In this document: one piece after another, positions 9,551 to 49,785 of the stretch
How positions within the stretch are numbered: the stretch's first letter is position 1
How the letters are laid out: every line of letters begins with the position of its first letter
Assembly (NCBI GenBank): GCA_017539565.1
Contig: JAFYCS010000077.1
Coordinates: 1 to 64,000 of the forward strand
DNA from: Lachnospiraceae bacterium
Lineage (GTDB): Bacteria; Bacillota; Clostridia; Lachnospirales; Lachnospiraceae
Direction of reading: 5' to 3'
Length of the DNA stretch: 64,000 bases
Translations under genes and position numbers: made by a program
Notes under the pieces: generated by a model
Seen by the model: only the letters and a program-made list of their open reading frames with translations
What the model was told of the DNA's origin: nothing
Database searches by the model: none

Positions 9551-9553
9551 TTC

Positions 9554-33711: not shown

Positions 33712-34692
33712 TCATATCAGATCGTTCTGAAATCTCGATAAGTGTTCATAAGGTAATATCAGCCTGCCCCTGTACAGCCCGCATCCGTCATTGATCAGGT
33801 TATTGTTCACCGCGCCGAACATGTTGACATCCACCTTGTTCAGTTCGAGCTGCTGCAAAAGCATGCCGCGTTCAAAAGCATCGTCAAAGTATATATTCTC
33901 TCCTACCGGTATGGCTTCACGCCTTGCCCGCTCTTCCTCCTGCCGCTTTTCATAGCCCAGATGATTGGCAGGACCTATCTCGGCATTGTCATCCATTTCC
34001 TTGGTACGGATCTGCACCTCGATATCGCTTCTGGACGTATTGTCAAAGAAGGATATATGCAGCGACTTATATCCGAAAAAGTTGGGATTCTCGATATAAT
34101 CCCTGTAATACTGTCTGTATCTTTCACCTATCGTTTTGCTATATATGTCTATTCCCGATATCTCCGGTTTGAACCCGCGCTCTTCAAGAAAATCCGGCAA
34201 TGCATCAGCTATCTCATACAGATAGCCCAGTTCCCGCTCCTGCCTGTTTTCCCCTGACTTCAAATGACACTGCGGCAGTGATATGACGATCCTGTAAGCA
34301 ATAAGGTCTTTTATCCTTCCTATCCGGTCCTTTATCTCAGCCTCCGAAGGATATCCCCCGGTCCTGCAATGATAATCATAGATGAACTCGACTATATTTC
34401 CGTTAATCTTTTCTTCAAGGCGTATGAGTGACTTGATCCTGCCCTTAAACGTAAATGCCAGATACGGATATCTATCTGCCATATACTTATAGAATTCCCT
34501 TATCTTCTGGGACTGCGCGGTAAGGAAATCATTATGCTCCAGCAGATCTATCATCATGAGCAGGCAGTTACTGTGAGCCAGGTCTATACCGTTGTCATTC
34601 TCTATCGCACTGTTCTTAAGATCCTGCGAATAACAATGCAGTATCTTGACTACAGTATCACCTTTATACAGGTAATCGTTAAGTGTTATCAT
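33712..34692 (-). CDS. RelA/SpoT synthetase-domain protein (lone alarmone synthetase-like)
   Basis: 326-aa protein with a RelA/SpoT nucleotidyltransferase domain over about 85-265: FKGRIKSLIRLEEKI, IKDLIAYRIVI, NPNFFGYKSLHISF and DIEVQIRTKEMDDNAEIGPA match the (p)ppGpp synthetase motifs, including the metal-binding Asp (KDLIAYR) and Glu (EVQIRT). No HD hydrolase, TGS or ACT domain, so it would be a lone synthetase, longer than small alarmone synthetases, with an extra N-terminal helical part. The ATG at 34692 has GAAGGAG 6 bp before it. A terminator-like hairpin ends 18 bp upstream. Confidence 0.82.
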   Translation of the reverse strand: MITLNDYLYKGDTVVKILHCYSQDLKNSAIENDNGIDLAHSNCLLMMIDLLEHNDFLTAQSQKIREFYKYMADRYPYLAFTFKGRIKSLIRLEEKINGNIVEFIYDYHCRTGGYPSEAEIKDRIGRIKDLIAYRIVISLPQCHLKSGENRQERELGYLYEIADALPDFLEERGFKPEISGIDIYSKTIGERYRQYYRDYIENPNFFGYKSLHISFFDNTSRSDIEVQIRTKEMDDNAEIGPANHLGYEKRQEEERARREAIPVGENIYFDDAFERGMLLQQLELNKVDVNMFGAVNNNLINDGCGLYRGRLILPYEHLSRFQNDLI

Positions 34693-34710
34693 ATCTTCTC
34701 CTTCATAATA

Positions 34711-34749
34711 CAAAAAAGGCAAAGACACCTGTCCGGGCGCCTTTGCCTT
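34711..34749 (-). terminator. Terminator after the iron alcohol dehydrogenase (hairpin family copy 1)
   Basis: On the minus strand AAGGCAAAGGCGCC pairs with GGTGTCTTTGCCTT (G-U pairs allowed), followed by TTTTTT. It closes the 12-gene amine operon. It also lies only 18 bp before the RelA-like ATG, so that gene is read through it or from a start upstream of it; a TTGACA overlaps the dehydrogenase stop. Confidence 0.8.
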
Positions 34750-34776
34750 ACAACAAAGCTATGATATCACATTCTG

Positions 34777-35940
34777 TCAATAAAGGCAATTTCTGTATAT
34801 CTGCTCCACATCGGAAGCATCCAGCTTAACATATGCCCTGGTCTTAAGCGTGCTCGTCCTTACTGCCTCGGCCGCCATTTCCGCAAGCCGCGAATCGTCG
34901 ATCCCCACATCAGATAATCTTGATGGAAGCCCTAAGGACTTAAAAAATCCTTCCGTCAGTTCTATTCCTTTTACAGCCGCCTTTAGGTCATCCTCTTCTA
35001 TTACATCCCAGACGTTTTTGGCATACATTGCAAATCTCTTTTTCGTATCATCATTCAGTATATATCTCATCCACGCGGGAGTCAGTATTGCAAGTCCGAC
35101 ACCGTGGGTAATGTCATAAAAAGCTGACAGTTCATGCTCCATGGGATGAACACTCCACCCTCCGCCTTTGCCGAAGGTCAGCAGATGATTAAGGGCTATA
35201 CTGCTGCACCACATAAGATTTGACCTTGCTTCATAGTTATCCGGCTCCTTCATGGCTATAGGCCCGTATTTAAAGCAGGTCTTCAGTGCCGCTTCACTGA
35301 AACGGTCCGTTAAGTAGGCCCCGTCATTGGGCTGGAAATACTGCTCAAATATATGAGATATGATATCCGCTGTTCCCGCAGCTGTCTGGGAAGCCGGCAG
35401 GGTAAACAGATATGTCGGATCGCATACGGAAAGTGTGGGATACAAAAGCGGATGATTGATCTCCAGCTTCTCTTTAGTCATCTCATTGCTTATGACCGCC
35501 CCCGGGTTCATCTCCGAACCTGTGGCACAGATAGTCAATACCGTAAATACCGGAAGCGCCTTAGTTACCAGAGATCTGTCCAATACCATATCCCAGGGAT
35601 CACCGTCGTAAAAGGTCCCGCAGGCTATATGCTTGGATGCATCGATGACACTTCCTCCTCCTACCGCCAGTATTACATCTATCCCTTTTTCTTTACATAT
35701 CTCTACACCTTTTCTTACGGATGTGATCTTAGGGTTAGGTTCTATGCCCGGAAGCTCATATATCTCATGATCTTTGAGCACTTCATAAACCTTATCATAC
35801 AGCCCGGTCTTTTTGATACTCCCTCCTCCATATACCAGAAGCACTTTCCTGCCGTATTTTCCTATTTCTTTATCCAGGCATTCTATCTGCCCTCTTCCGA
35901 ATCTTATGTCCGTAGGTACACAAAATGCATAATCATTCAT
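34777..35940 (-). CDS. Iron-containing alcohol dehydrogenase (BdhA/YqdH-like)
   Basis: 387-aa type III alcohol dehydrogenase, probably NADPH-dependent, interconverting an aldehyde and alcohol. GGGSIKKTGLYDKV and AVGGGSVIDASKHIA form the nucleotide site; the iron ligands are Asp/His in AGTADIISHIFEQYF and the His residues in WSVHPMEHELSAFYDITHG. Last gene of the amine operon, 14 bp after the DadA-like gene. It could reduce an aldehyde released by amine oxidation; this is inferred from position. Confidence 0.9.
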   Translation of the reverse strand: MNDYAFCVPTDIRFGRGQIECLDKEIGKYGRKVLLVYGGGSIKKTGLYDKVYEVLKDHEIYELPGIEPNPKITSVRKGVEICKEKGIDVILAVGGGSVIDASKHIACGTFYDGDPWDMVLDRSLVTKALPVFTVLTICATGSEMNPGAVISNEMTKEKLEINHPLLYPTLSVCDPTYLFTLPASQTAAGTADIISHIFEQYFQPNDGAYLTDRFSEAALKTCFKYGPIAMKEPDNYEARSNLMWCSSIALNHLLTFGKGGGWSVHPMEHELSAFYDITHGVGLAILTPAWMRYILNDDTKKRFAMYAKNVWDVIEEDDLKAAVKGIELTEGFFKSLGLPSRLSDVGIDDSRLAEMAAEAVRTSTLKTRAYVKLDASDVEQIYRNCLY

Positions 35941-35954
35941 ATCTGCGTCCTCCT

Positions 35955-37085
35955 TCAGATCTTCGCCTTAAACCTGTCATACCTTAAGGAAGAAAGATCG
36001 ACATCCGTCTTTCCCGTGGCTATCAGCTGCGCCAACTGGTGACCTGCTGCCGGTCCTATCCCGAAGCCGTGTCCGGACATAGCACAGGATGTATACAGTC
36101 CCGGCACTTCATCTATCGCTCCCACTACTGCCACCCCGTCCGCGCATTTATCACTCCAGCCGGCCCAGGTACGTACGATCTTTGCATCTGCCAGATCCGG
36201 AAAATACTTCATGATACCCCTGCATATACAGGGAGCCGTCTTTGCATTTGATACAGGCGTTCCGTTATCCTTATTGCAGCCTTCATAGCCTGACGATCCG
36301 CCGAACACGAAAGATCCGTGCTTGGTCTGATGTCCGTAAAAATCCGCTTCCGCAGTTCCAAGCATCTGATCGAACATATGGGGCTGCGCCTCGGTAACAA
36401 GACACTCAAGCAGCGAACGGGTCATTGGAATATCAACTCCCACGGTTCCCAGTATCGCTCTGCTGTCAAAACCTGCAGCTACCAGAATATTTTCGCCTTC
36501 AAACACATCGCCTGATGCACAGACCACCTTTCTTACTTTACCCCTGACCATCTTCAGCTCCGTGACACGCTCTCCCGATATAAACCTCACTCCCAGCCTC
36601 CTGGCCATTTTATAATATCCCAGTGTCGTGGTAAGAGGATTTGCATGACCGTCTGTAGGGCACCAGCTTGCACAGGTCACTTCATCCGAAAGATAGGGAT
36701 TGATACGCTTTACTTCATCCGCATCTATCATCCTTACATCAAGCCCGCAGGCTTTAGCATTCTCTGCCAGTTTAGTAAGTATAGCCTTATGCTTCTCATT
36801 CTTTCCCAGACGCAGGTTACCGTCCTGATGATATTCACAGTCGGTTTCCAGCTCCTCCGAAAGCGTGGGCCATATATTCTTTATCCCATACATTACAAGC
36901 GGCAGTTCCCGCACATCACGTCCGGACTGTCTTACACCACCGCCGTTACGGCTCGATCCGCCGTTTCCTATATGATCGCTGCCCTCCAGGCTTATGACGC
37001 TTAAGCCTCTTTTTGCCAGATAATATGCGGCAGCATTTCCTATCACTCCGCCGCCTATAACTACTACGTCCGCACTATTTTTCAT
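35955..37085 (-). CDS. FAD-dependent amine/amino acid oxidoreductase (DadA/HcnC-like)
   Basis: 376-aa D-amino-acid-oxidase-fold flavoprotein with the dinucleotide motif VVIGGGVIGNAAAYYLAKRG, RNGGGVRQSGRD, and a late GHGFGIGPAAGHQLAQLIA. The ATG at 37085 is chosen because GGAGGTG lies 7 bp before it. It corresponds to the HcnC/OoxB catalytic subunit of complexes that oxidise the C-N bond of glycine, opines or secondary amines. It overlaps the BFD-like gene by 11 bp, which supports one complex. Confidence 0.88.
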   Translation of the reverse strand: MKNSADVVVIGGGVIGNAAAYYLAKRGLSVISLEGSDHIGNGGSSRNGGGVRQSGRDVRELPLVMYGIKNIWPTLSEELETDCEYHQDGNLRLGKNEKHKAILTKLAENAKACGLDVRMIDADEVKRINPYLSDEVTCASWCPTDGHANPLTTTLGYYKMARRLGVRFISGERVTELKMVRGKVRKVVCASGDVFEGENILVAAGFDSRAILGTVGVDIPMTRSLLECLVTEAQPHMFDQMLGTAEADFYGHQTKHGSFVFGGSSGYEGCNKDNGTPVSNAKTAPCICRGIMKYFPDLADAKIVRTWAGWSDKCADGVAVVGAIDEVPGLYTSCAMSGHGFGIGPAAGHQLAQLIATGKTDVDLSSLRYDRFKAKI

Positions 37086-37416
37086 CTGCGTCCACCTCCT
37101 CTGCTTCGTTTGCAAAGATACGCATTTCGATGGGTCTCATGGGAACCCTGCTGGTAGCCGGCTCTATCTCTGCAGGCGATACTCCCAGCTCTCTTGCAAC
37201 TATTCCCTTAACAAGCCTGGAGCAGGTCTGGCCCTGGCATAATCCCATTCCGGCTCTTAAATATCTTCTTATCTCTGTCATGGTCCACATACCGTCATGT
37301 ACCGCACGCCGTATTTCTCCTTTGGTTATCTCCTCACAACGGCATACAAGCATATCATCATCGGCTCCCGGTAAAAACGGTCCTATATCCCTTGATCTGT
37401 CATTTACACTGTTCAT
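37075..37416 (-). CDS. BFD-like [2Fe-2S] protein
   Basis: 113-aa protein with a bacterioferritin-associated-ferredoxin-like cluster site: LVCRCEEITKGEI and GMGLCQGQTCSRLV give four Cys (C-x-C...C-x4-C). In HcnB/OoxA proteins this module is the C-terminal domain of the NAD/FAD subunit; here it is a separate gene. ATGA overlap with the upstream flavoprotein gene and 11-bp overlap with the DadA-like gene put it in the complex as an electron carrier. Confidence 0.88.
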   Translation of the reverse strand: MNSVNDRSRDIGPFLPGADDDMLVCRCEEITKGEIRRAVHDGMWTMTEIRRYLRAGMGLCQGQTCSRLVKGIVARELGVSPAEIEPATSRVPMRPIEMRIFANEAEEVDADEK

Positions 37417-39008
37417 CTTGATACCTCCTGCTCTGCTTCTTTGAAAAACCTTGCCGTCATCGCATATTCTTTAGGAACACGCATAGTGAGTAAATGGGTT
37501 TTATCAAACGCCGTTGCACTCTTTACCGAAACAACTTCCGCCTCACATACCATCCGGCCGTTCCTGCCAAGTGCCACTCCTTTAGTCCCTTCCTTAGGCA
37601 GCGGCAGGAATTCATAGGGGATCGTAACCGTTGCCGTTCCGTCTCCGCAGTCTTCATCTACCAGAAAGATTGCCTGTCCCGAACAGCTGGCCACACACAT
37701 TCCGCAGCCGATACAATCGCCTTCATACACCGCTATCGGAAGAGAAGTTATATTATCGCCTATGGAGATACACTTCTTGGGACATGCATCCTGGCAGGGA
37801 TTGCAGGGAATATTCTGTGTGCATTCTATTACGGGATGGATCCCCTTCTTATGTGTAACACCGGGGAAGCGTTCTATCTCATCATCAGACACATATCCTT
37901 TCTTCAGCAGATTTGAAGATATATCGATACCTTCTTCGGTCTTTTCTATAGCCTTTCCCCTGTTTGCCGGAGCAAACATTCCCTGACGAAGGCCGTCAAG
38001 CGCTTTATCAAGAACCGCCAGTTCCTTATCCAGCTCCGCTTTATCTATGTATCCCAGGAATTCCGCTGCGGCCACTCCTGCCATACGTCCCTCTATCATT
38101 GCAGAGGAAGCTTCTTCTATTCCGGAAACATCACCTGCTGCAAATACCCCCGGTATTGATGTACGTCCGTATTCGTCGCAGACAGGTACCTGGCCTCCGC
38201 GTTTGGGATCATCCGTCATTTCCGCACCCGCCATCTTAAGCAGTTGTGACATGGGTGATAAGCCTACCGCCATGCATATGGTATCAACTTCAAAGTGCTT
38301 TTCCGTACCGGGGATGAACTTAAACTTATCATCCACCTCTGCTATGGTCACACCCTTAACACAGTCTTCACCTTCTGCTTCTACTATGGTATGCGAAAGA
38401 TAAAAAGGTACTCCGCACCTTGCCACCTTTGATGCATGTACTCCGTATCCGCCTACTCTAGGAGCCGCATCAACAAGTGCAACCACCTCGCAGCCGCACT
38501 GCATGAGCTGGAAGGATACGACCAGTCCCACATTTCCGGATCCCAGCATAAGGATCTTCTTTCCCGGCAGTATCCCGTGCAGGTTCATCATGGTCTGTGC
38601 AGCACCTGCCCCTATTACTCCCGGCAGTGTCCATCCGGGGAACAGTACCATATTCTCTGCAGCTCCCGTTGCTATAACAACCGAATCTGCCTTGTAATGT
38701 TTTATCCTTGCCCCCTGCTTTACCACCACTTCTTTATCCTGATAAAGCCCTATTACCGTAGCATTAAGCTTAACCGATACACCGGCCTCTGCCGCTTCTT
38801 CAAGCAGCTGGCGGCCTATCACAAATCCCCTTACTTTTGCCCTGTGTTCTTTTGATCCGAAGAACTTATGTATCTGCTTGAAAAGCTGGCCTCCCGGTTT
38901 TTCGTTCTCATCAAAAACGATAACGTTTAATCCTCTCTTCGCCGCTTCTATAGCTGCTGATAAGCCCGAAGGTCCCGCACCAACAATGATCAGATCGTAT
39001 CTTTTCAT
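37413..39008 (-). CDS. NAD(P)/FAD oxidoreductase with two C-terminal [4Fe-4S] sites
   Basis: 531-aa flavoprotein. FAD motif LIIVGAGPSGLSAAIEAAKR, ATGAAENMVLFPGW, second Rossmann motif LMLGSGNVGLVVSFQLMQ, FAAGDVSGIEEASSAMIEGR; then from about 420 a ferredoxin part with CTQNIPCNPCQDACP and CIGCGMCVASC (two 4Fe-4S sites). It corresponds to HcnB/OoxA, but with ferredoxin sites in place of the BFD domain, which is a separate gene. This suggests electrons leave to ferredoxin or NAD in an anaerobe rather than to oxygen. Confidence 0.9.
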   Translation of the reverse strand: MKRYDLIIVGAGPSGLSAAIEAAKRGLNVIVFDENEKPGGQLFKQIHKFFGSKEHRAKVRGFVIGRQLLEEAAEAGVSVKLNATVIGLYQDKEVVVKQGARIKHYKADSVVIATGAAENMVLFPGWTLPGVIGAGAAQTMMNLHGILPGKKILMLGSGNVGLVVSFQLMQCGCEVVALVDAAPRVGGYGVHASKVARCGVPFYLSHTIVEAEGEDCVKGVTIAEVDDKFKFIPGTEKHFEVDTICMAVGLSPMSQLLKMAGAEMTDDPKRGGQVPVCDEYGRTSIPGVFAAGDVSGIEEASSAMIEGRMAGVAAAEFLGYIDKAELDKELAVLDKALDGLRQGMFAPANRGKAIEKTEEGIDISSNLLKKGYVSDDEIERFPGVTHKKGIHPVIECTQNIPCNPCQDACPKKCISIGDNITSLPIAVYEGDCIGCGMCVASCSGQAIFLVDEDCGDGTATVTIPYEFLPLPKEGTKGVALGRNGRMVCEAEVVSVKSATAFDKTHLLTMRVPKEYAMTARFFKEAEQEVSR

Positions 39009-39020
39009 AACCCTGTCCTC

Positions 39021-39347
39021 CTACTGTTCATCAAATGCTTTATCTGAAACCCCATACTGTGTCCTGACCGTCATTCCCTCTTTAAGCGGCGTTATACAGG
39101 TCCTCACATTAGGCACGCCGTCTACTATCATCACACAGTCAGTGCACCGGCCTATCGCACAGAATATGCCTCTCGGCTTATGCTCTTTCTGGGTATATCT
39201 GTGAACCATCACACCGGCGGCTTTAAGGGCAGCTGCTATAGGTTCTCCTTCATATCCTTCGATCTCTTTCCCGTCAAAGATGAAGCTTACTTTACGTCCT
39301 TTTTCAACCACACCGAGTATCGGATGTTCCGCTATCCTATCTGCCAT
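39021..39347 (-). CDS. [2Fe-2S] ferredoxin-like subunit (HcnA-like)
   Basis: 108-aa Fer2_4-type protein like HcnA and the N-terminal domain of sarcosine oxidase alpha. The cluster Cys residues are in GIFCAIGRCTDCVMIVDG and RTC (C-x4-C-x2-C-x11-C). The ATG at 39347 is preferred because GGAG lies 9 bp before it; the longer frame begins inside the previous gene. 12 bp before the flavoprotein gene. Together the four genes make a split HcnABC-type complex. Confidence 0.88.
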   Translation of the reverse strand: MADRIAEHPILGVVEKGRKVSFIFDGKEIEGYEGEPIAAALKAAGVMVHRYTQKEHKPRGIFCAIGRCTDCVMIVDGVPNVRTCITPLKEGMTVRTQYGVSDKAFDEQ

Positions 39348-39385
39348 GATCATGATCTCCTCTCTGTCTGTATCCGTCTCAGTCC

Positions 39386-40519
39386 TTAACACATATCCGG
39401 ACTGTCCCATAAATGTAACTTTGTTCCCAGTCCCAGTTTCTTTGCTTTTTCATAACATACCTTTCCCCAGGCCACATCCTCCACCGGCATACCGCCTACG
39501 GAATAAACAAATACCTGATCCTCACTGACTCTCCCGGGTTTCTTCCCGAAAATGATATCTCCCAGATCCGTTATATCATCCATTGATATCAGTCCGTCAT
39601 GTGCCATATCGGTGAACTTCGATCCTATGATGTTATTTATTCCGAATGAAGGATAAGGGAACTCTTCCGCCCAGGCCTCATACAGCTTGATATTGTCCAC
39701 TACCAGACTGCAGCTTTTAAGTTCCTCCGAATCCATATCAAAGGCACTTACGCCTATCAGTACCGCCCCCGGCTTTATCCACTGCTTCTTTACGAAGGGA
39801 TAAAATGCCGGATCCGTTCCTCCCGAGTTGGAAAAGGATATAACATCCGTATCCCTGACCAGTTCCTCTATACTGTCTGCCGCTTCGATCTTTTTCAGAT
39901 TCGGATATTTATCTTTTACATAGGCCATGAACTTCTCCAGTGAACTCTTTCCTCTTCCTTTAACCTTGAGTGTATCTATATCCGGGCAGGCTGCCATTAT
40001 CGCCGCCAGCGAAGTCTTTCCCATAACACCGGGGCCGCAGATACCGCAGATCTTTGCTCCTTTATTTACCAGATACTTTGCTCCGACACCAGGTATAGCG
40101 CCTGTTCTGTACGCACTCAAAAGATTTGCACTCATAAGAGCCAGAGGCGCGCCTGTATCCTTATCGTTAAGCATCACTGTCAATATCGATCTGGGCAGCC
40201 CTTTTTCCCTGTTGGCCATGTTTGATCCGTACCACTTCATTCCCATCAGATCAAAGGGGCCTCCGATATATGCCGGCATCGCCATAAACCTGCGGTCATC
40301 GCCGACATCCAGCGGCATCTTAGGAAATGGTGAAGTCTTTGGAAATGATACCTGGCTTCCGTGCGAGTTATGGTTCTCGCCACCCATCACATAATCCCCG
40401 GAATTTAAGCATTTGATAACCTCTTCCATTGCTTCTATACAGGCCGGCATATCCTTAACGCCGGCTTTTATCATGTCTTCCTCACTCAGAAACAGAAAAT
40501 CGATTGCCGGATAGCTCAT
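39386..40519 (-). CDS. Ornithine cyclodeaminase/mu-crystallin family protein (copy 2)
   Basis: 377-aa NAD(P)-binding protein of the OCD/mu-crystallin/ketimine-reductase family. The catalytic-site Lys is in MGMKWYGSNMANREKG, followed by LNDKDTGAPLALMSANLLSAYRTGA and the Rossmann turn ICGPGVMGKTSLAAI. Members are ornithine cyclodeaminases, ketimine reductases or opine-related enzymes; some databases call close relatives tyramine oxidase subunit B. Paralogue of the preceding gene. In octopine/nopaline operons an ocd gene also accompanies the oxidase genes. Confidence 0.85.
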   Translation of the reverse strand: MSYPAIDFLFLSEEDMIKAGVKDMPACIEAMEEVIKCLNSGDYVMGGENHNSHGSQVSFPKTSPFPKMPLDVGDDRRFMAMPAYIGGPFDLMGMKWYGSNMANREKGLPRSILTVMLNDKDTGAPLALMSANLLSAYRTGAIPGVGAKYLVNKGAKICGICGPGVMGKTSLAAIMAACPDIDTLKVKGRGKSSLEKFMAYVKDKYPNLKKIEAADSIEELVRDTDVISFSNSGGTDPAFYPFVKKQWIKPGAVLIGVSAFDMDSEELKSCSLVVDNIKLYEAWAEEFPYPSFGINNIIGSKFTDMAHDGLISMDDITDLGDIIFGKKPGRVSEDQVFVYSVGGMPVEDVAWGKVCYEKAKKLGLGTKLHLWDSPDMC

Positions 40520-40546
40520 TTTATCAACTCCCTTCTAATAGCCTGT

Positions 40547-41695
40547 CTATCTCATATATGGTTCGTCCCAAAGGTTTAACTTGGTACCTATACCGTTTTC
40601 TGCAGCATTTCTGTAACAGTCATATCCCCAGGCCACATCTTCTATCGGCATCCCGCCGCTGCTGCATAGTACTATCTCGTCTTCAGAAGTCCTTCCCTGC
40701 GATATACCGTTCACAATATCGCAAAGATTTATCACCTGCTCTCTTTTTATCTTTCCTTCCCTTACCAGATGAATGAAGTGTATTCCCATGATCACCCATT
40801 CCCTCTTATTTCCAAGCTCATCCACAGGGCCTCTGGCTATAAAGTTGTTCATGTATTTGTCATACATGCCGTAGTTATCTACTACCATCGTAGTGCCTGT
40901 CAGTTTATCGAATTCCCTGAAGAGAAAACTTCCCATCGAAAACACCGATGCACCTTTCTTAAACCATTCAAGGTGAAATTCCTCCGCTTTATCGGGACTT
41001 ACGGACATCGCCTCACTCACAACATCCGCATCCCGGCAGGCCTGCTCAAGACTCCCGCATATCTCGATCTCCTTTACCTGAGGATATTTTTCTTCGACAA
41101 ACTTCTTAAACGCCAGCGTTGATGCGGATACCGGAGAACTTCCCTTTATCTTTATCTTTTTTATCTGAGGAAGAACCGCCATATAGCTCATCAATGCACA
41201 TTTATTGATCACTCCGGGTCCAAGTATCGAAAGCACTTCCGAATCAGCGTTTGCAAGATAACTTGCTGCCATTGCGGGCATGGAGCCCGTCCTCATGGCA
41301 CTTAAGAGGTTTGCCGACATATAGGCTATGGGAGCACCGGTATCCACATCATTAAGTGTGGCCATAAGGATCGATCTGGGCAGCCCCTTCTTTATATTGT
41401 CATGATTCGATCCGTACCATTTCTGCCCCGCTATATGAAACCTTCCGCCCAGATATGCAGGCATTGCATTAAACCTTCTGTCAGGGCCGTTATCCAGAGG
41501 AAAGTTTTCAATATCCTTAGCTTTGGGGAAATTTATCTGAAGGCCATGCTCATCACCCTTAGGCCCTCCCATGATATAATCCCCCTTTCCGAAAAGGCTC
41601 ATCACATCCCTCATGGTCTCAACGCAGGCTTTGGCGTTAAGCACTCCGGCGTCGATCATGTCTTTTTCACTCAGATATAAAAAATCAATTGCCAT
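40547..41695 (-). CDS. Ornithine cyclodeaminase/mu-crystallin family protein (copy 1)
   Basis: 382-aa paralogue: Lys in IAGQKWYGSNHDNIKKG, LNDVDTGAPIAYMSANLLSAMRTGS and the nucleotide turn LSILGPGVINKCALMSYM. The glycine pattern in the turn differs from copy 2 (GPGVINK against GPGVMGK), so cofactor use may differ. The two proteins clearly align along their length, so this is a tandem duplication with divergence, perhaps a heterodimer. A strong hairpin separates it from potD. Confidence 0.85.
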   Translation of the reverse strand: MAIDFLYLSEKDMIDAGVLNAKACVETMRDVMSLFGKGDYIMGGPKGDEHGLQINFPKAKDIENFPLDNGPDRRFNAMPAYLGGRFHIAGQKWYGSNHDNIKKGLPRSILMATLNDVDTGAPIAYMSANLLSAMRTGSMPAMAASYLANADSEVLSILGPGVINKCALMSYMAVLPQIKKIKIKGSSPVSASTLAFKKFVEEKYPQVKEIEICGSLEQACRDADVVSEAMSVSPDKAEEFHLEWFKKGASVFSMGSFLFREFDKLTGTTMVVDNYGMYDKYMNNFIARGPVDELGNKREWVIMGIHFIHLVREGKIKREQVINLCDIVNGISQGRTSEDEIVLCSSGGMPIEDVAWGYDCYRNAAENGIGTKLNLWDEPYMR

Positions 41696-41721
41696 AATCT
41701 CATCTCCCTTTTAAACCAAAA

Positions 41722-41749
41722 CCCGGGACAGATCCGTGTCCGTCCCGGG
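41722..41749 (-). repeat. Intercistronic palindrome between potD and ocd copy 1
   Basis: CCCGGGAC and GTCCCGGG form an 8-bp perfect stem, followed on the minus strand by TTTTGGTTT. It may act as a partial terminator or mRNA 3' end protector, giving more importer than catabolic mRNA. Its GGGACGG...TGTCCC core resembles the palindromes at 47063-47095 and 49715-49731. Confidence 0.6.
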
Positions 41750-41783
41750 CCCCTTTGCCCTGTTATCAAAATGATACTTAAGG

Positions 41784-42869
41784 CTATTCTTTTAACTTAG
41801 TCCACATATCACTGTACAGTTCCAGAATGTCGCTGTCCAGGTTCTCAACAAAACTACCCTTTGCGATAGCATCCGCAGGCGGATTCTTTGCCGGATTGCT
41901 GCTGTATTCCTCACCCATGATCGCAATAGCATCTGTATTTGCACAAAGGTAAGGGAATTCCTCCAGTACCATCGCCATGTTTTCAGGATCCATCATAAAG
42001 TTCATCCACTCCATTGCGTTGTCATAATTGGGCGAATCCTTGGTAACTACCCAGTTATCAAAGAAGAGGTATGCACCTTCATCCGGATATATGACTTTTA
42101 TCGAAGGTACTTCCGCCATAGCCATTGCTATCTCTGCGCTCCATATCATTCCCGCATAGCAGTCACCGGATATCAATGCACTCTTGGGTGAATCCGAATC
42201 ATACAGAGCCACATTTTTCTTAAGCTCCATAAGCTTATCCGATACCAGAGCAAGCTTTGCCGGATCCTTTTCACTTAAGTCATAACCCATTGCTTTATTT
42301 GTCATACCTATGACAGCACGGAAATCATCCAGCACTACCAGCTTTCCTTCCAGGGAAGGATCGAAAAGATCTTCATAGGATGTTATATCAAGGTCCACCT
42401 TATCGGTATTTACCGCTATAGCTCCGGCGCCTCCCATGTAAGGTACCGAATATACATTACCCGGATCATAGCTGGGATCCTTATAGCTCTCACCTATGTG
42501 TGAGAAATTCGGAAGCCTTTCAAAATCAAGTTCCTTAAGCATTCCCTGCGCTATAAGCTGTGCCACCATATAATCACTGGGCTGGAGTACATCATAAGCA
42601 CCTGCCGCCTCTGATCTGACTTTTGCCAGCATATCCTCATTGGATGAATAAGTCGAAACATTTACCTTTATACCGGTTTCCTTTTCAAACTTTTCCACCA
42701 CCGAATCCGGCAGATACTCTGTCCATACGAACAGGTTCAATTCACCTTTATCACCGGCAGCTTCTCCTCCTGCCGCATTAGCCTGCCCGGCTCCTGTTTC
42801 TCCGCATCCTGCCATACACATTACCGCAAATGATAATGCCGATACCAAAACCATTAATCTCTTCTTCAT
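41784..42869 (-). CDS. potD: Spermidine/putrescine-type ABC importer, binding lipoprotein
   Basis: 361-aa solute-binding lipoprotein (signal MKKRLMVLVSALSFAVMCMAGC, lipobox CMAGC; Glu/Ala/Gly-rich spacer). The mature part has LNLFVWTEYLPDSVVEKFEK, LQPSDYMVAQLI and VPYMGGAGAIAVNTDKV, as in PotD/PotF. The acidic and aromatic residues lining PotD pockets are partly present (WTEY, SDYM), so a polyamine or related amine is likely; exact ligand open. Last of the four transport genes. Confidence 0.88.
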   Translation of the reverse strand: MKKRLMVLVSALSFAVMCMAGCGETGAGQANAAGGEAAGDKGELNLFVWTEYLPDSVVEKFEKETGIKVNVSTYSSNEDMLAKVRSEAAGAYDVLQPSDYMVAQLIAQGMLKELDFERLPNFSHIGESYKDPSYDPGNVYSVPYMGGAGAIAVNTDKVDLDITSYEDLFDPSLEGKLVVLDDFRAVIGMTNKAMGYDLSEKDPAKLALVSDKLMELKKNVALYDSDSPKSALISGDCYAGMIWSAEIAMAMAEVPSIKVIYPDEGAYLFFDNWVVTKDSPNYDNAMEWMNFMMDPENMAMVLEEFPYLCANTDAIAIMGEEYSSNPAKNPPADAIAKGSFVENLDSDILELYSDMWTKLKE

Positions 42870-42896
42870 ACTTCTTTCCTCCTATTCCCGTCTTAT

Positions 42897-43703
42897 TCAG
42901 ACTTTATTATGCTTTCCGGATAATATGCCGCTCTGCGTTATGAACACCAGGCCGATCGTACCCAGTAATAAAAGCGCCGACAGTGCATTAACATCCGGCG
43001 AAACACCGCTTTTGATGCTTTCCATTACCTTCAACGGATAAGTCTTAGTCTGTCCGTTAACGAAGTAGCTTATGATCACATCATCTATGGAAAGCGTAAA
43101 TGCCAGCAAGGCTCCTCCTGCTATTCCGGGTGCAAGTACCGGTAAAATGATCTCAAAAAATGTAACTATACGGTTCGCACCCAGATCCATACTTGCCTCT
43201 TCGATCGATGCATCATATCCCGAAAGCCTGGCTCTGACATTAAAGATCACATACGGCACACAAAAACTTACGTGTGAAAGGATCAATGTAAGCATCCCGC
43301 GCGGGACCCCGGTGTTTGAAAAGATAGTCAACAGTGCTATACCTATTACTATTTCCGGGATGACCACCGGTATATATAAAAGTCCGTTTATTATCCCTTT
43401 ACCCTTAAACTTGTATCTGTATATTCCCACAGCTCCCAGAGTCCCGATGACTGTCGAAAGCAGAGTACTGAGCAGCGCTATCAACATGGTATTTCCGAAG
43501 GATTCCAGCAGTGACGAATTACTCCAGAGTTTTGCGTACCAGTCCAGGGTAAATCCCTTCCAGCTAAGATAAGGTTTTGTGGTGGTTGCGTTAAATGAGT
43601 TTGCCACTACCACAAAGATCGGAAGGAACAAAAACAGATAAACCGCTGAGCAAAATACTATCCCTATACCTTTATTTCTTTTTTCTTTAACCGTTCTTTT
43701 CAT
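42897..43703 (-). CDS. potC: Polyamine-type ABC importer permease
   Basis: 268-aa inner-membrane permease with six helices; EAA loop EEASMDLGANRIVTFFEIILP, then GALLAFTLSIDDVIISYFV, as in PotC. The ATG at 43703 follows AGAGG; a GTG two codons earlier is the alternative. 9 bp after potB. Confidence 0.9.
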   Translation of the reverse strand: MKRTVKEKRNKGIGIVFCSAVYLFLFLPIFVVVANSFNATTTKPYLSWKGFTLDWYAKLWSNSSLLESFGNTMLIALLSTLLSTVIGTLGAVGIYRYKFKGKGIINGLLYIPVVIPEIVIGIALLTIFSNTGVPRGMLTLILSHVSFCVPYVIFNVRARLSGYDASIEEASMDLGANRIVTFFEIILPVLAPGIAGGALLAFTLSIDDVIISYFVNGQTKTYPLKVMESIKSGVSPDVNALSALLLLGTIGLVFITQSGILSGKHNKV

Positions 43704-43712
43704 AGGCACCTC

Positions 43713-44591
43713 TCATACTCCCAGACTATCCATATCCCCGCCAAGTTTCTGATAGATCTTTACAAGGAGCAGTGTTACAAGTATCAGTATGATCGAAAGC
43801 GCTGCTCCAAGCGGCCAGTTATTAGCACTTTTGAACTGCCTCTCTATCAGATTACCGATCATATCGGTATTACCACCACCAAGTATGTTTGATACAAAGA
43901 AGTAACCAAGGCAGGGGATAAATACCATTATGCATCCGGAAAATATCCCGCCTGATGTAAGAGGAAGTATCACTTCAAACAATGTACGCAGCGGCCTTGC
44001 TCCCAGATCACTCGACGCCTCCAGAAGGCTTCCGTCCAGCTTTTCTATAGCTGTATATAGCGGCAGTACCATAAACGGAACAAAGCAGTATACCATGCCT
44101 AATATCGTAGTCCCGGTCTTATAGAGAAGATCCACGGAGCCGTCCGCAATATGCAGAAATGTCAGGATCTTTATAAGCCAGCCGCTGTTTCCAAGAAAGC
44201 TCCTCCATCCGTATATCCTTATCAGTGAATTGGTCCAGAAAGGAATGATCACCAGCATATATAAGAGCTTTTTCTTTTTGCTCTTTGTCCTTGCTATGAT
44301 ATATGCAAAGGGATATCCGATAAGCACACAGATAAGAGTTGTTGTAAAGGATATCAAAAGTGATCTGGCATATATCTTCAGATAATCGACGGATAAAAGC
44401 TTTCCGTAATTTGCAGCGGTAAAGTCATATACCACATTGTAGTACTCATCGGTCTTGCAGAAGCTCATCACCGCTACCAGGATCAGCGGAGCTACCACCA
44501 GGAACAGAAGGAGCAGCGCCACCGGACCGACTGTCACAAGAGCCGGCAGAGTATTTGATCTGAATTCATGTTTTGATGTTTTCCCGCTCAT
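43713..44591 (-). CDS. potB: Polyamine-type ABC importer permease
   Basis: 292-aa permease with six helices; EAA loop LEASSDLGARPLRTLFEVILP, the GGIFSGCIMVFIPCLGYF stretch and the C-terminal LVTLLLVKIYQKLGG. The ATG at 44591 is chosen because GGAGGG lies 7 bp before it; the longer frame starts inside a repeat element and lacks a ribosome site. Partner of PotC; the two form the channel. Confidence 0.9.
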   Translation of the reverse strand: MSGKTSKHEFRSNTLPALVTVGPVALLLLFLVVAPLILVAVMSFCKTDEYYNVVYDFTAANYGKLLSVDYLKIYARSLLISFTTTLICVLIGYPFAYIIARTKSKKKKLLYMLVIIPFWTNSLIRIYGWRSFLGNSGWLIKILTFLHIADGSVDLLYKTGTTILGMVYCFVPFMVLPLYTAIEKLDGSLLEASSDLGARPLRTLFEVILPLTSGGIFSGCIMVFIPCLGYFFVSNILGGGNTDMIGNLIERQFKSANNWPLGAALSIILILVTLLLVKIYQKLGGDMDSLGV

Positions 44592-44613
44592 ATTCTTCCC
44601 TCCGCTCCCTTTT

Positions 44614-44645
44614 GTCATCCTGAGGGCTTTAGCCCGAAGGATCTT
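44614..44645. repeat. Dispersed-type intergenic hairpin repeat between potA and potB
   Basis: TGTCATCCTGAGGGC, a TTTA loop and GCCCGAAGGATCT form a stem with one internal mismatch. The TGTCATCCTGAG...GAAGGATC pattern is known as a short interspersed intergenic repeat in many bacteria. Here it overlaps the end of potA. Confidence 0.6.
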
Positions 44646-44648
44646 TTC

Positions 44649-45758
44649 CTACGCAAGCTTTATCTCATCTAATATCTTAAATATCTTATAGCTGTCATTA
44701 TGTATCAGTACTGCATCTTCCGGCTCCCAGTATGGATAGATCCTGCTTCCTATAGGTGGAAGCTCCTGACCTGCAAGCCTTTCAATCTTTAATTCATTTC
44801 CGTTTGGCAGTGATACGATGCACTTAAGCACTGCTCCCACATAGATATAATCCTTAACTATCGCTACCAGTTCAAAACCATCATGGGGCTTTGTCTGAAA
44901 GCGCATCTTCTCGGGCCTTACAGAAATGGTTGCATATTCCAGTATTGAGAAACTGTCATCACACTTAACCTTTACCGCACCGTTTTCCAGTGTTACCGTG
45001 GCTACACCTTCATGGATGCTGGTAACGCAGCCGTCATAGATATTGGTCTCTCCTATAAAGGTTGCTACAAACCTCGTAGCCGGATGCTCATATATCTCAG
45101 TGGGTGTATCCAGCTGATCCACTATACCGTCATGCATTATCGCTATCCTGTCGCTCATGGTCAGTGCTTCTTCCTGATCGTGCGTTACATATATGAATGT
45201 GATGTTCAGCTTTTTCTGCAGCCTTTTAAGCTCCAGCTGCATCTGCTTCCTGAGCTTAAGATCCAGCGCTCCCAACGGCTCGTCCAGGAGAAGTACTCTC
45301 GGGCGGTTGATCAGCGCTCTGGCTATGGCAACTCTCTGCTTCTGTCCTCCGGAAAGCTGTGAGGGATATCTTTTTTCAAATCCCGAAAGCTGAACCATTT
45401 CCATCATTTCAAGCACCCGTTCCTTTATCTCCGGCTTGGGGACCTTCTTCATCTTCAGCCCGTATGCTATATTGTCAAAGATCGTTTTATGAGGAAACAA
45501 TGCATATGTCTGGAACACTGTATTTACGTTTCTTTCATAAGGTTCCTTTTCCTCGACCGGAACACCCTCCACTTTGATGGTCCCGGTACTGGGTTCTTCG
45601 AATCCTGCTATCATTCTCAGTGTGGTGGTCTTTCCGCATCCGGAAGATCCCAGGAGTGTAAGGAACTCGCCTTCATTCACTGTCAGGTTCAGATCTTTGA
45701 CCACATGATTAGAACCGTATTTTTTATTGACTCCTATCATCTCAACTATAGTACCCAT
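44649..45758 (-). CDS. potA: Polyamine-type ABC importer ATPase
   Basis: 369-aa ATPase: Walker A LLGSSGCGKTTTLRM, signature LSGGQKQRVAIARAL, Walker B LLLDEPLGALDLKLR, switch His VTHDQEEAL, then a C-terminal TOBE/OB regulatory domain (about 240-355) as in PotA. It starts 14 bp after the PII gene and heads the potABCD block. Confidence 0.92.
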   Translation of the reverse strand: MGTIVEMIGVNKKYGSNHVVKDLNLTVNEGEFLTLLGSSGCGKTTTLRMIAGFEEPSTGTIKVEGVPVEEKEPYERNVNTVFQTYALFPHKTIFDNIAYGLKMKKVPKPEIKERVLEMMEMVQLSGFEKRYPSQLSGGQKQRVAIARALINRPRVLLLDEPLGALDLKLRKQMQLELKRLQKKLNITFIYVTHDQEEALTMSDRIAIMHDGIVDQLDTPTEIYEHPATRFVATFIGETNIYDGCVTSIHEGVATVTLENGAVKVKCDDSFSILEYATISVRPEKMRFQTKPHDGFELVAIVKDYIYVGAVLKCIVSLPNGNELKIERLAGQELPPIGSRIYPYWEPEDAVLIHNDSYKIFKILDEIKLA

Positions 45759-45772
45759 ATAAGTACCTCCGG

Positions 45773-46129
45773 CTATAATGCCTTTACTCCTCTTTCTCCG
45801 GTACGGATCCTCACCGCATCTTCCACATCCTTAATGAATATCTTTCCGTCTCCCACATGATCGGTAGCACACACTTCACAGATATTCGATATCACGGTTT
45901 CAACATCCTTATCATTTACCACTACTTCCACCTTTACTTTAGGAAGGAGATTAATGGTAGTTTTATAACCCTTTATCTCGTTTACACTTCCTTCATCAGA
46001 TACTCCCTTCTGGGTTCCGCAGCCCATACAGGTCGAAAGCGTCATTCCTCCGCAATGGATCTTATCCAATACTGCCTTAACATCCTCAAGCTTCTCCGGT
46101 CGTATAAATATATTTAATTCCTTCATCAC
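45773..46129 (-). CDS. PII-family signal protein, atypical T loop
   Basis: 118-aa GlnB/GlnK-fold protein. The nucleotide-binding B loop (TDHVGDGKIFI) and C loop (AVRIRTGERG) are conserved, so it should bind ATP/ADP. The T loop (MGCGTQKGVSDEGSVNEIKG) differs from GlnB, and the uridylylated Tyr51 position aligns with Thr (GYKTTINLLPKVKVEVVV). No amtB or glnA is nearby; it heads the pot/amine operon instead. It probably senses energy state and regulates the importer, the complex or transcription; partner unknown. Confidence 0.88.
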   Translation of the reverse strand: MMKELNIFIRPEKLEDVKAVLDKIHCGGMTLSTCMGCGTQKGVSDEGSVNEIKGYKTTINLLPKVKVEVVVNDKDVETVISNICEVCATDHVGDGKIFIKDVEDAVRIRTGERGVKAL

Positions 46130-46160
46130 TCATACCTCCTTATCTTCTTACTTCAAAACA

Positions 46161-46195
46161 GAAAAGGCGCCGTATCACCGATACAGCGCCCTTGC
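46161..46195 (-). terminator. Hairpin with T run in the PII operon leader (hairpin family copy 2)
   Basis: On the minus strand GGCGCTGTATC pairs with GATACGGCGCC around GGT, followed by TTTTCTGTTTT. It ends the luxR-type transcript but also lies 31 bp before the PII ATG, downstream of the best PII promoter, so it may act as an attenuator. Confidence 0.65.
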
Positions 46196-46229
46196 CTAAT
46201 TTGTATAATATAGGACTTCTTTTATGTGC

Positions 46230-46258
46230 AATATAAACTATTCATCAATACAATTCAA
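46230..46258 (-). promoter_or_regulatory. Candidate promoter of the PII/pot/amine operon
   Basis: On the minus strand, -35 TTGAAT (46258-46253), 17 bp, -10 TATATT (46235-46230), about 100 bp before the PII ATG. A second candidate is TTGCAC/TATACA at 46231-46202. Both lie upstream of the leader hairpin. Confidence 0.45.
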
Positions 46259-46299
46259 CTGATCATAAATACCATTTTTCTACTCCTTTTTAAGTAGTC

Positions 46300-47049
46300 T
46301 CACTCCTTTTCAAGTATCATTTTAAACAATCCTACCCTGTTGTTGATCCCCAGCTTCCGGTAAAGATTGAGAATATGTTTCTTAAGTGTGTTTTCCGTGA
46401 TCATCATGATATCGCAGATCTCTGTATTACTCTTGCCTTCCATAAGATGCTTAAGCACAGCTTCCTCTCTTCTTGTCAGTTCAAACTTTTCTGCAGCAGC
46501 ATGTACTGAAAGCTTCTCGATCGAAGGATCGTTACTCTTCTTCTGCTGATACAGGCGGTATGCAAGATGATCTTTTAACAGATCAAGAATAAAGATGTCA
46601 TCGTAAACAAAGTCATCTTTCCCGATGGTTCTGTAAAAAGTCACCACCCCTACAAATTCCTTCTTTCTTGCAAGCACCATCTGCAGTGCATAATGCCAGT
46701 TATTGGCTTTATAAACTTTCTTGTAATAATCCGTCTCAACTCTTTTTTCATCAGTTATTATATCGGTTTCACGATAGATCAGAGTTTTCCCGCCATACAA
46801 TATTCCCCTGCTGTAATCCATATCATCATATACCATGGACATATCTTCTTCGCAGTTATAGAGAACAGGTGATATGAGCTTTTTTTCTCCATCCGGTGAT
46901 GCAAGATGAAAATCCGCACTGTCATAATCGATCAGCATTTTCATCTGCTCCAGAAACTGCGCACGCATATCATCAATATTGTTCATCGTATATATTTTAT
47001 AGATTATACTGTTCAGAAAAATCCAGTCATTTGTCTCCAGCGTTCTCAT
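46300..47049 (-). CDS. LuxR-family transcription regulator
   Basis: 249-aa regulator with an N-terminal GAF-like sensor part (about 15-160) and a C-terminal LuxR helix-turn-helix: LTRREEAVLKHLMEGKSNTE, ICDIMMITENTLKKHILNLY and RKLGINNRVGL. No receiver domain, so it probably binds a small molecule or protein. Directly upstream of the PII/pot/amine operon in the same direction, it is the natural candidate for its regulator. Confidence 0.88.
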   Translation of the reverse strand: MRTLETNDWIFLNSIIYKIYTMNNIDDMRAQFLEQMKMLIDYDSADFHLASPDGEKKLISPVLYNCEEDMSMVYDDMDYSRGILYGGKTLIYRETDIITDEKRVETDYYKKVYKANNWHYALQMVLARKKEFVGVVTFYRTIGKDDFVYDDIFILDLLKDHLAYRLYQQKKSNDPSIEKLSVHAAAEKFELTRREEAVLKHLMEGKSNTEICDIMMITENTLKKHILNLYRKLGINNRVGLFKMILEKE

Positions 47050-47062
47050 ACCTTCTCCTTCC

Positions 47063-47095
47063 GTGAGGACACGGTGACGGTCATTTTGTCCTCAC
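47063..47095. repeat. Palindrome between the PEP-binding gene and luxR-type gene
   Basis: GTGAGGACA and TGTCCTCAC form a perfect 9-bp stem around a 15-base loop containing GACGGTC. It overlaps the stop codon of the PEP/pyruvate-binding gene and lies just before the luxR ribosome site. Related in core to the palindromes at 41722 and 49715. Confidence 0.6.
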
Positions 47096-49731: not shown

Positions 49732-49740
49732 CCGGAAAAC

Positions 49741-49785
49741 AAAAAAAGCAAAAGCACCAATGCGGCGCCTTTGCCTCTTATTGAA
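49741..49785 (-). terminator. Strong hairpin with T run (hairpin family copy 3)
   Basis: On the minus strand AGGCAAAGGCGCC, GCATT loop, GGTGCTTTTGCT followed by seven T. It ends transcripts from the small-ORF region and lies 66 bp before the PEP-binding gene ATG. Confidence 0.75.

Follow-up and report, generated by a model that had tools for sequence, protein, structure and literature searches.

A PII-headed gene block in Lachnospiraceae with a probable role in polyamine import and putrescine nitrogen scavenging

Introduction

What does a Lachnospiraceae bacterium take up and oxidize with a gene block that encodes a PII-family signal protein, a Pot-type importer, two proteins of the OCD/mu-crystallin family and a split flavoprotein complex? 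The block lies on contig JAFYCS010000077.1, of which we analysed positions 1 to 64,000. This whole stretch of 64,000 nucleotides is called the window, and all features given below by their window positions are on the minus strand. An earlier note on this DNA had proposed amine uptake coupled to anaerobic C–N bond oxidation, with a polyamine-, opine- or Amadori-like substrate. We judge the uptake and oxidation part to be right, the chemistry being predicted from sequence, and we consider it likely (probability about 0.7) that the block is a PII-linked unit that scavenges nitrogen from putrescine (and agmatine) with OCD and flavoprotein enzymes.

Gene order and conservation

The ORF list places twelve minus-strand ORFs between 46129 and 34777 and, together with the family matches, bears out the order given in the earlier note: PII, potABCD, the OCD pair, the oxidase genes and an alcohol dehydrogenase (adh). 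The twelve genes in this order are real. From PII to adh, the intergenic gaps are 14, 30, 3, 27, 88 and 27 bp, an overlap, 12 bp, two overlaps and 14 bp. The spacing had been described as mostly 4–30 bp, which is fair for most gaps with the exception of the 88 bp between potD and ocd1, the widest, inside which a GC-rich hairpin was seen by eye. A LuxR-type regulator (46300..47049; PF00196) stands at the head of the conserved block, and in each of the two operon types described here luxR comes before PII at most loci.

Among the best 80 of 155 related loci, ocd1 is present in 46 and absent from 34. All twelve genes are found in the same order on one strand in 29 of the 46 ocd1 loci, and 16 are slices ended by contig borders. 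Gene order is kept as far as the contigs extend in 45/46, the remainder being L012, where the ocd1 match is split into two tblastn pieces. Given this conservation among related loci, the arrangement is more than chance. Neighbourhoods in relatives that split the pot genes from the oxidase genes had been named as evidence against a single system. The objection holds in part, such neighbourhoods being seen in an aminotransferase type of operon, in APC-permease-type relatives (e.g. L080 and L142), and in L031, L034 and L051, which have a close ocd2 (77–78%) without ocd1 or pot genes adjoining; loci with ocd1 retain the order to the extent given above. In G384, ocd2 and pot-ocd1 are on different contigs. 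The arrangements in G384 and in L031, L034 and L051 therefore indicate that the two halves of the block are separable.

The PII protein

The first gene, pii (45773..46129, start codon GTG at 46129 or ATG at 46126), encodes a 118-aa protein that matches PF00543 at 90.7 bits against a gathering score of 25. Its T-loop is five residues longer than that of 2eg1 and carries NEIKG where other PII proteins read YRG. In GlnB and GlnK, Tyr51 of the T-loop is the uridylylation site. An alignment of 75 PII sequences with that of the window showed that the position of this tyrosine is replaced in the window protein. PII lies directly 5' of potA in 17/17 testable loci across both operon types. The earlier view that a PII gene at the head of such an operon is unusual is upheld. 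In the literature covered, mostly from outside subscription journals and including parts of PMC9397018 and PMC10606097, we saw neither a PII-pot nor a PII-OCD operon described. As a comparison, PII is reported to control ABC importers of nitrogen sources in Synechocystis, the cyanobacterial importers being NrtABCD and UrtABCDE (PMC6603209). Both cases join a PII protein to ABC-type import of a nitrogen source; in the window, by contrast, the importer is of the polyamine type, the PII gene is inside the block, the organism belongs to the Lachnospiraceae and the interaction is putative.

The importer and its substrate

PotA (44649..45758) passes the subfamily cut-off of TIGR01187 (381.9 vs 355.6 bits). 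PotB (43713..44618) and PotC (42897..43709) have the PotB and PotC models as their top matches, and PotD (41784..42869) matches the PotD model and E. coli PotD chains, but all four fall under the E. coli-type equivalog cut-offs (429.8/482, 272/348, 265.3/326 and 222.3/582 for PotA to PotD). Gene set, gene order and most acidic and aromatic pocket residues are those of the PotABCD polyamine importer, from which the window differs by the missed cut-offs, by PII in front and by the pocket. PotD keeps W49, E51, E246, D182 and D271, whereas E171/E185 is replaced by Ala and Q327/L348 by Val, the third box position is F, L or M, and the distal pocket is altered to D182/A185/V341. Thirteen of 15 pocket positions are identical in 35/35 sequences from both operon types; in a larger set of 42, four further positions deviate, each in single sequences. 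This pocket is unlike that of E. coli PotD and of 23 other, more distant PotDs, in none of which the D182/A185 pair occurs. The S232/D247-to-Glu change was dropped as a special trait, with Asp or Glu at that place in 22 of the 23 distant PotDs from the loci. Given these differences, the ligand of PotD is a putative one.

A search with PotD alone across 397 genomes of the family found close relatives in 18. Downstream of luxR-PII-potABCD, nine of these loci continue with ocd genes, eight with a putrescine aminotransferase and an aldehyde dehydrogenase (ALDH), and one with an aldehyde dehydrogenase alone; both modules together occur in 0/18. Genome-wide, PatA (E up to 1e-100) is found in 9/9 genomes of the aminotransferase/ALDH group and 0/9 of the OCD group, and an OCD1-type match in 9/9 of the OCD group and 0/9 of the other. 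The aminotransferase of L138 passes NF008570 (682 vs 612) and misses the TIGR03372 cut-off (487 vs 659); in G050, the aminotransferase is at a distance of about 16 kb. The aminotransferase-type pot blocks sit in other genera of the family. A tree groups the OCD-type loci on one branch, the base of which is weakly supported (0.14). The swap may therefore have happened just once, and the 9:9 split does not amount to 18 independent observations. These data suggest that the OCD/flavoprotein module probably replaces the putrescine transaminase. It shares with the putrescine aminotransferase/aminobutyraldehyde dehydrogenase pathway (presumably YgjG/PatD) the same place behind luxR-PII-potABCD, but the enzymes are unrelated: there is neither an aldehyde dehydrogenase nor a PLP enzyme in the twelve-gene block of the window, and an alcohol dehydrogenase takes the place of the aldehyde dehydrogenase. 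Aminotransferases of the PatA class may accept other diamines.

AguA and AguB are encoded within the cluster in ten relatives, either between ocd1 and ocd2 (L028, L033, L035, L037 and L168) or directly 3' of adh (L036, L040, L043, L044 and L163), and exceed their cut-offs (AguB 456/410, AguA 542/382). PuuA-type gamma-glutamylation was also considered; a PuuD-like gene occurs in 5 of the best 80 of 155 loci, too rarely to support an argument, and four matches to PF00120 are present in the own genome. Because PatA and ALDH stand behind the same PII-pot genes, the PotD pocket is common to both types and AguA/AguB occur in the cluster, putrescine or agmatine is a more likely substrate than an opine.

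The oxidizing enzymes and alternative substrates

OCD1 (40547..41695) and OCD2 (39386..40519) score 442 and 542 bits against NF004848 (cut-off 362). This model is named tyramine oxidase subunit B, a link to tyramine that consists of the name only; tynA/tynB tyramine oxidase is mentioned in PMC10850344 and PMC12027173. Against NF005762, a model of ornithine cyclodeaminase, both proteins stay far below the cut-off (63.6 and 55.4 vs 350 bits). Lys95 and Arg138 of OCD2, for which an AlphaFold2 model has a mean pLDDT of 94.1, are invariant in 79/79 sequences. The Arg, which we take to be a carboxylate site, is likewise invariant in OCD1 (43/43), and OCD1 is without an Asp that many OCD2 proteins carry.

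The oxidase genes encode a [2Fe-2S] gamma-type subunit (39021..39410; PF13510, Fer2_4), an alpha-type subunit in two genes and a beta-type DAO/SoxB-like flavoprotein (35955..37115; PF01266, 221 bits). The gamma subunit has CX4CX2CX12C, within the CX4CX2CX11-12C of the family, and 55/56 sequences have CX4CX2CX10-13C. One alpha gene (37413..39008) encodes the FAD/NAD part (a piece of TIGR01372) with a 4Fe-4S dicluster, the Cys motif of which is present in 58/58 sequences; the other (37075..37416; PF04324, Fer2_BFD, and PF17806) encodes the BFD-like [2Fe-2S] part, with its motif in 42/42. The beta protein scores 143 bits with the SoxB model and 86 with the D-amino acid dehydrogenase model, has 1y56_B as its top solved chain, and carries the FAD motif GGGVIG at 21 and RTW at 315 (RxWAG in 49/50 sequences). 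These shared beta, gamma and alpha motifs support the proposed kinship with HcnABC and opine dehydrogenases. A beta DAO protein with RxW, a gamma [2Fe-2S] protein and an alpha FAD/NAD protein with a BFD-type [2Fe-2S] domain are common to flavin-containing opine and D-hydroxyproline dehydrogenases, HCN synthase and archaeal L-proline dehydrogenase. The window differs from these in that alpha is not a single chain: one gene encodes its FAD part and another its BFD part, and a 4Fe-4S dicluster is added. The block further adds the OCD pair and the polyamine importer, and its substrate is probably a diamine. The last gene, adh (34777..35940; PF00465), encodes an Fe-containing alcohol dehydrogenase, probably an aldehyde reductase, whose nearest NCBIfam model is NF011717 (308 bits, below the cut-off of 645), presumably that of YqhD.

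Oxidation of another amine (cadaverine, spermidine or a tyramine-like compound) by the same logic is unlikely. It draws on the name of NF004848 and on the OCD2 homologues of Rhizobium and Nitrincola (L075, L077, L078 and L083), each followed by a DAO protein, with an aldehyde dehydrogenase 6–8 kb away in three of the four; the one scored, from L075, resembles StyD, with 702 bits against a cut-off of 850 that it does not reach. However, both the inserted AguAB genes and the exchange with PatA favour C4 diamines, and the aerobic homologues are just 56–58% identical to OCD2, with no ocd1 in the stretch examined. The aerobic pairs resemble the window in having an OCD protein beside a DAO flavoprotein; the window has a second OCD paralogue, and electrons would pass along iron-sulfur centres instead of through a single-chain flavoprotein.

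We give a similarly low chance to the idea of a later role for the OCD pair, in which it would follow the oxidase and dispose of electrons by reducing 1-pyrroline (cyclized 4-aminobutanal) or a different cyclic imine. Solved OCD-fold relatives include pyrroline-2-carboxylate reductase (6t3e) and thiomorpholine-carboxylate dehydrogenase (4bv8), which would fit this idea, but 1-pyrroline has no carboxylate to meet the invariant Arg, and in other lineages OCD and DAO proteins co-occur with no such ADH. In true opine or Amadori catabolism, an N-substituted amino acid would enter through PotABCD and be cleaved by the flavin dehydrogenase, with OCD processing ornithine. This reading is improbable: the oxidase subunits do share motifs with flavin-containing opine dehydrogenases and occ operons likewise contain ocd (PMC4575208), but the PotD family and its pocket common to aminotransferase-type operons, the low NF005762 scores and the AguAB genes inside the cluster all argue against it. 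The occ/noc opine operons of Ti plasmids resemble the block in combining an importer, an HcnABC-type oxidase and an OCD-family gene; the window differs in importer class (Pot-type), OCD class and PII, and its relatives add AguAB.

The leader hairpin and other candidate signals

A conserved, terminator-like hairpin precedes PII (46151..46205). A strict hairpin pattern missed most leaders, so a covariance model (R1) was used instead. In the own genome, where 150 of 1351 candidates were scored, R1 gave two matches below E 0.01, the PII leader and one 5' of an Amt-PII gene, which makes it less likely that the hairpin is nothing more than a general terminator. Weaker own-genome matches resemble ordinary terminators by eye. 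Three leader matches were named AguB by BLAST, one of which (L029:1487) is probably NAD synthase. No Rfam family was found in the window at gathering scores, and relaxed searches with the leaders of the window, L163, L166, L172 and L178 gave matches solely below those scores.

Upstream lie a promoter-like TTGAAT-17-TATATT (46230..46258; 9/12 positions), such sites numbering 30 in the region as a whole against 26.9 by chance, and a candidate regulator site (46272..46298), an inverted repeat ACTACTT..GGAGTAG followed by AAAAATGG. The strict pattern of this repeat is present in 17/54 PII leaders (the 54 count seven contigs twice), and another 12 matches turned up across 3.78 Mb of strands. In 13 ocd1-type or close relatives, ocd2 has a leader-type hairpin directly 5' of it, which suggests a second transcription start there; the ocd1-ocd2 gap of the window is just 27 bp. 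After adh, where a terminator had been noted, lies a terminator-like hairpin (34716..34749) with a weak R1 match (34703-34756, E 0.015; absent at E 0.02 from a larger search). A promoter-like TTGACA..TATCAT stands directly before it, however, so this hairpin may, instead of being a terminator, serve as leader to rel, the gene that follows.

Proposed function and its meaning

The sequences provide the gene order, its conservation, the module replacement, the common PotD pocket, the AguAB insertions and the leader hairpin; from these we infer the substrate, reaction order, product, PII target and any hairpin effect. Agmatine would be converted by AguA/AguB, and PotABCD would import the diamine. 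The flavoprotein complex, of the split opine/proline-dehydrogenase type, would act with the OCD pair to take off one amino nitrogen and leave 4-aminobutanal, which the Fe-alcohol dehydrogenase would reduce to the alcohol, maintaining the redox balance of the anaerobe. Gating of the transporter is the most likely task of the dedicated PII, and LuxR and the leader hairpin may play a part in expression.

A more tentative extension of the putrescine reading, which we rate as possible but doubtful, is that the OCD pair and the flavin dehydrogenase form a PLP-free "redox transaminase" and that the block is one unit of a nitrogen regulon that centres on PII and bears the leader hairpin as its mark. 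OCD would reductively couple putrescine and a 2-oxo acid to an N-alkyl amino acid, and the SoxB-like complex would oxidize the other C–N bond to give 4-aminobutanal and an amino acid, with electrons returned to NAD. SbnB-type OCDs carry out such coupling in reverse. The net outcome would be the same as with putrescine aminotransferase, and this would account for the exchange of one module for the other. A common promoter-proximal leader hairpin, also 5' of the Amt-PII gene, would identify the regulon.

Putrescine scavenging would give a concrete and testable function to an unassigned set of genes that occurs across Lachnospiraceae of the rumen and gut, and a possible route by which strict anaerobes take nitrogen from polyamines without a transaminase. 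PII gating of polyamine import is suggested, and the candidate leader element would link polyamine use with ammonium transport. The OCD and DAO pair may be a sign of an amine-deamination chemistry of general use. Gut polyamine levels are important for host and microbes alike.

Two enzyme modules occur with the same importer genes

To avoid choosing loci by their OCD genes, we searched 397 family genomes with PotD only (E up to 1e-90) and classified each match by the gene content of its surroundings, to a maximum of about 20 kb. This yielded 20 loci in 18 genomes. Nine were OCD-type, with luxR-PII-potABCD followed by ocd genes; those of genomes G384 and G105 were cut by contig ends, with ocd2 of G384 on another contig. 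Eight carried a putrescine aminotransferase and an aldehyde dehydrogenase; in L165 and L167, from two genomes in the same genus, the two genes are separated by about 3 kb. G050 had the aldehyde dehydrogenase alone, with the aminotransferase about 16 kb further on, and in the last two loci potD lay near AguA/AguB and the full block was missing. The two enzyme sets did not occur together in any of the 20 loci. In L138, the aminotransferase passed the cut-off of NF008570 (682 bits; cut-off 612) and was below that of TIGR03372 (487 bits; cut-off 659).

The same separation was seen genome-wide. The aminotransferase (E up to 1e-100) was found in 9/9 genomes of the aminotransferase/aldehyde dehydrogenase group and 0/9 OCD-type genomes, and OCD1-type matches in 9/9 OCD-type genomes and 0/9 of the other group. 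In a PotABCD tree, rooted on L173 by choice, the OCD-type loci group together on a branch whose base is weakly supported (0.14), and seven of nine aminotransferase-type loci fall in another (0.93). Replacement between the two modules may have been a single event. The parts of the block are individually of known kinds. Among the papers listed by our literature search for such operons, we found no description of PII combined with a polyamine importer, an NF004848 OCD pair and a split opine-dehydrogenase-type complex, nor of a swap of the OCD/oxidase module with putrescine aminotransferase.

Block proteins and proposed chemistry

The ORF listing of the window contained twelve minus-strand genes (46129 to 34777), arranged as reported in the earlier note. 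Family scans bore out the names proposed there, with adjustments to the OCD pair and to the protein called DadA-like. The latter (DAO) scored higher with the SoxB model (143 bits) than with the D-amino acid dehydrogenase model (86 bits), and its best solved chain is 1y56_B. OCD1 (442 bits) and OCD2 (542 bits) both fall within the NCBIfam family NF004848 (cut-off 362), which is named "tyramine oxidase subunit B". Among sequences of 340 aa or more, Lys95 and Arg138 are invariant in 79/79 OCD2 and 43/43 OCD1; we take Arg138 to be a carboxylate site, after OCD structures. Asp261 occurs in 45/79 OCD2 and is absent from OCD1 and 34/79 OCD2, at a position where the alignment is uncertain.

Consecutive segments of the SoxA model TIGR01372 are matched by the Fer2, FAD and BFD proteins. 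Motifs of the oxidase proteins agree with those that PMC4575208 describes for flavin-containing opine dehydrogenase in its gamma and alpha subunits. Unlike the enzyme described there, the alpha subunit in the window is divided over two genes and there is an added 4Fe-4S dicluster. A single-chain DAO protein follows OCD2 in L075, L077, L078 and L083. We propose that OCD and DAO would be the catalytic pair, that Fer2/FAD/BFD would stand in for oxygen as acceptor and that ADH would dispose of the aldehyde. The data are compatible with direct oxidative deamination and also with a shuttle of the opine type; only the shuttle uses the carboxylate site.

Conservation and alternative layouts

Named genomes were scanned with OCD2, and the best 80 of 155 confirmed loci, mostly titled as rumen and gut Lachnospiraceae, were taken. 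Of these 80, 46 have ocd1: 29 hold the complete twelve-gene set in window order, 16 are slices cut by contig ends and one (L012) has ocd1 in two pieces. Some of the 34 loci without ocd1 are also contig-end cuts (for example L041 and L050). Contig ends do not account for its absence from L031, L034 and L051, where ocd2 is close (77-78%). L031 has ocd2 to adh and 3.5 kb upstream without ocd1, L034 has 1.8 kb upstream without it, and in L051 ocd2 follows luxR-PII and the pot genes are missing.

PII is present in 16 of the 34 ocd1-less loci. A second layout, fer2-fad-bfd-dao-ocd2-AraC-PII-APC permease, recurs in more distant loci (Roseburia faecis L080, Anaerostipes L063). L055, from a genome titled Eggerthella, has Amt-PII-ocd2-fer2-fad-bfd-dao; L064, L066, L072 and L082 have ocd2-PII-permease, with the oxidase genes absent from the fetched stretch. 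A more distant OCD2 (53-55%) is encoded elsewhere in two genomes of the aminotransferase/aldehyde dehydrogenase group, so the second layout may serve another amine.

Several neighbouring genes were also recorded. Beside OCD2 and oxidase genes, one frame of about 890 aa (L054:11774-14452) fuses an APC permease to an iron alcohol dehydrogenase, and L059 and L061 have a similar frame. An Amt-PII fusion gene (L052:6184-7890) lies near an OCD2 homologue. A RelA/SpoT-domain gene adjoins the block in pot and permease layouts alike (window 33712-34728; L142, L023, L030, L010). An 860-aa PPDK_N-domain protein is encoded upstream of luxR (window 47092-49674), and such a gene adjoins some related blocks (L018, L030, L013).

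AguB (456 bits; cut-off 410) and AguA (542 bits; cut-off 382) lie between ocd1 and ocd2 in L028, L033, L035, L037 and L168, directly 3' of adh in L036, L040, L043, L044 and L163, and in convergent orientation in L026. Contigs that appear under two ids, recognised by matching lengths and coordinates, were counted once for these loci (L160=L018, L161=L023, L162=L026, L164=L044, L139=L004, L140=L010, L141=L025). In the window, AguB and AguA (4365-6304, minus strand) belong to an apparent polyamine biosynthesis operon (4365-11005, minus strand); AguA is a 47% match and AguB was named by eye, as were the minus-strand frames that follow, resembling carboxynorspermidine decarboxylase, saccharopine dehydrogenase, spermidine synthase and Orn/Arg decarboxylase.

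PII and its leader hairpin

PII lies directly 5' of potA in 17/17 testable loci of both types (G384 is cut). In L134 (G046), where PotD is more distant (36%), it lies between potD and potA. PII matched twice in the window genome, at the block PII and in the final part of an Amt-like frame. The block PII keeps the Gln/Lys at the T-loop base, the K of LLPK, GDGK and RIRTGE, residues that presumably serve ATP and 2-oxoglutarate binding. In aligned pot-linked PIIs the T-loop is longer and Ile, Leu or Phe takes the Tyr51 position, except in L134, where the motif is missing. The simplest inference, by analogy with the Synechocystis precedent (PMC6603209), is that PII would control transport.

A first scan found a hairpin in 51/54 PII leaders (44/47 with seven duplicated contigs counted once), ending mostly 18-65 nt before PII. 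In a 25-sequence alignment, 9/11 pairs had at least one sequence altered on both sides. The covariance model R1 gave 95 rows in 89 sources (E up to 0.02), or 82 places after removal of 13 opposite-strand duplicates; these counts are biased, since the sources were selected for this system and 25 of these leaders went into the model. By BLAST, the gene that follows is PII at 45 places, ocd2 at 17, luxR at 5, AguB at 3 (one of which, L029:1487, is probably NAD synthase instead), Amt, fer2, rel and ppdk at 1 each, and some other gene at the remaining 8. A promoter-like site lies within 75 nt upstream at 55/82 places, compared with 12.7 expected from shuffles.

The window's own genome served as an unbiased test, with 150 of 1351 candidates scored. 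The PII leader was the best match (1.2e-8), followed by a place (6.7e-4) that precedes the Amt-PII gene by 85-140 nt; all others were above 0.01. No Rfam family matched the hairpin at gathering scores. It could serve as a terminator or attenuator, or as a stabilising hairpin. The GC[AG]A-plus-hairpin element lies before PII at window 46151-46205 and before the Amt-PII gene at L178:1501-1556; in the window, rel and the PPDK_N gene are each preceded by a weak match (34703-34756 and 49738-49784, respectively). Other matches precede an aspartate ammonia-lyase-like gene, named by eye (L059:12871-12957, L061:11513-11599). This leader is possibly a nitrogen regulon signal.

PotD pocket and likely ligand

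At E up to 1e-5, PotD matched once in the window genome. Pocket positions were mapped by alignment to E. coli PotD with the residue list in PMC8666671. Thirteen of 15 positions are identical in 35/35 PotDs from both operon types, and in a larger set of 42, four further positions each have one deviating sequence. None of the 23 more distantly related PotDs retrieved along with loci carries the D182/A185 pair. OCD-type and aminotransferase-type PotDs are therefore likely to share a ligand, and the aminotransferase-type operons point to putrescine.
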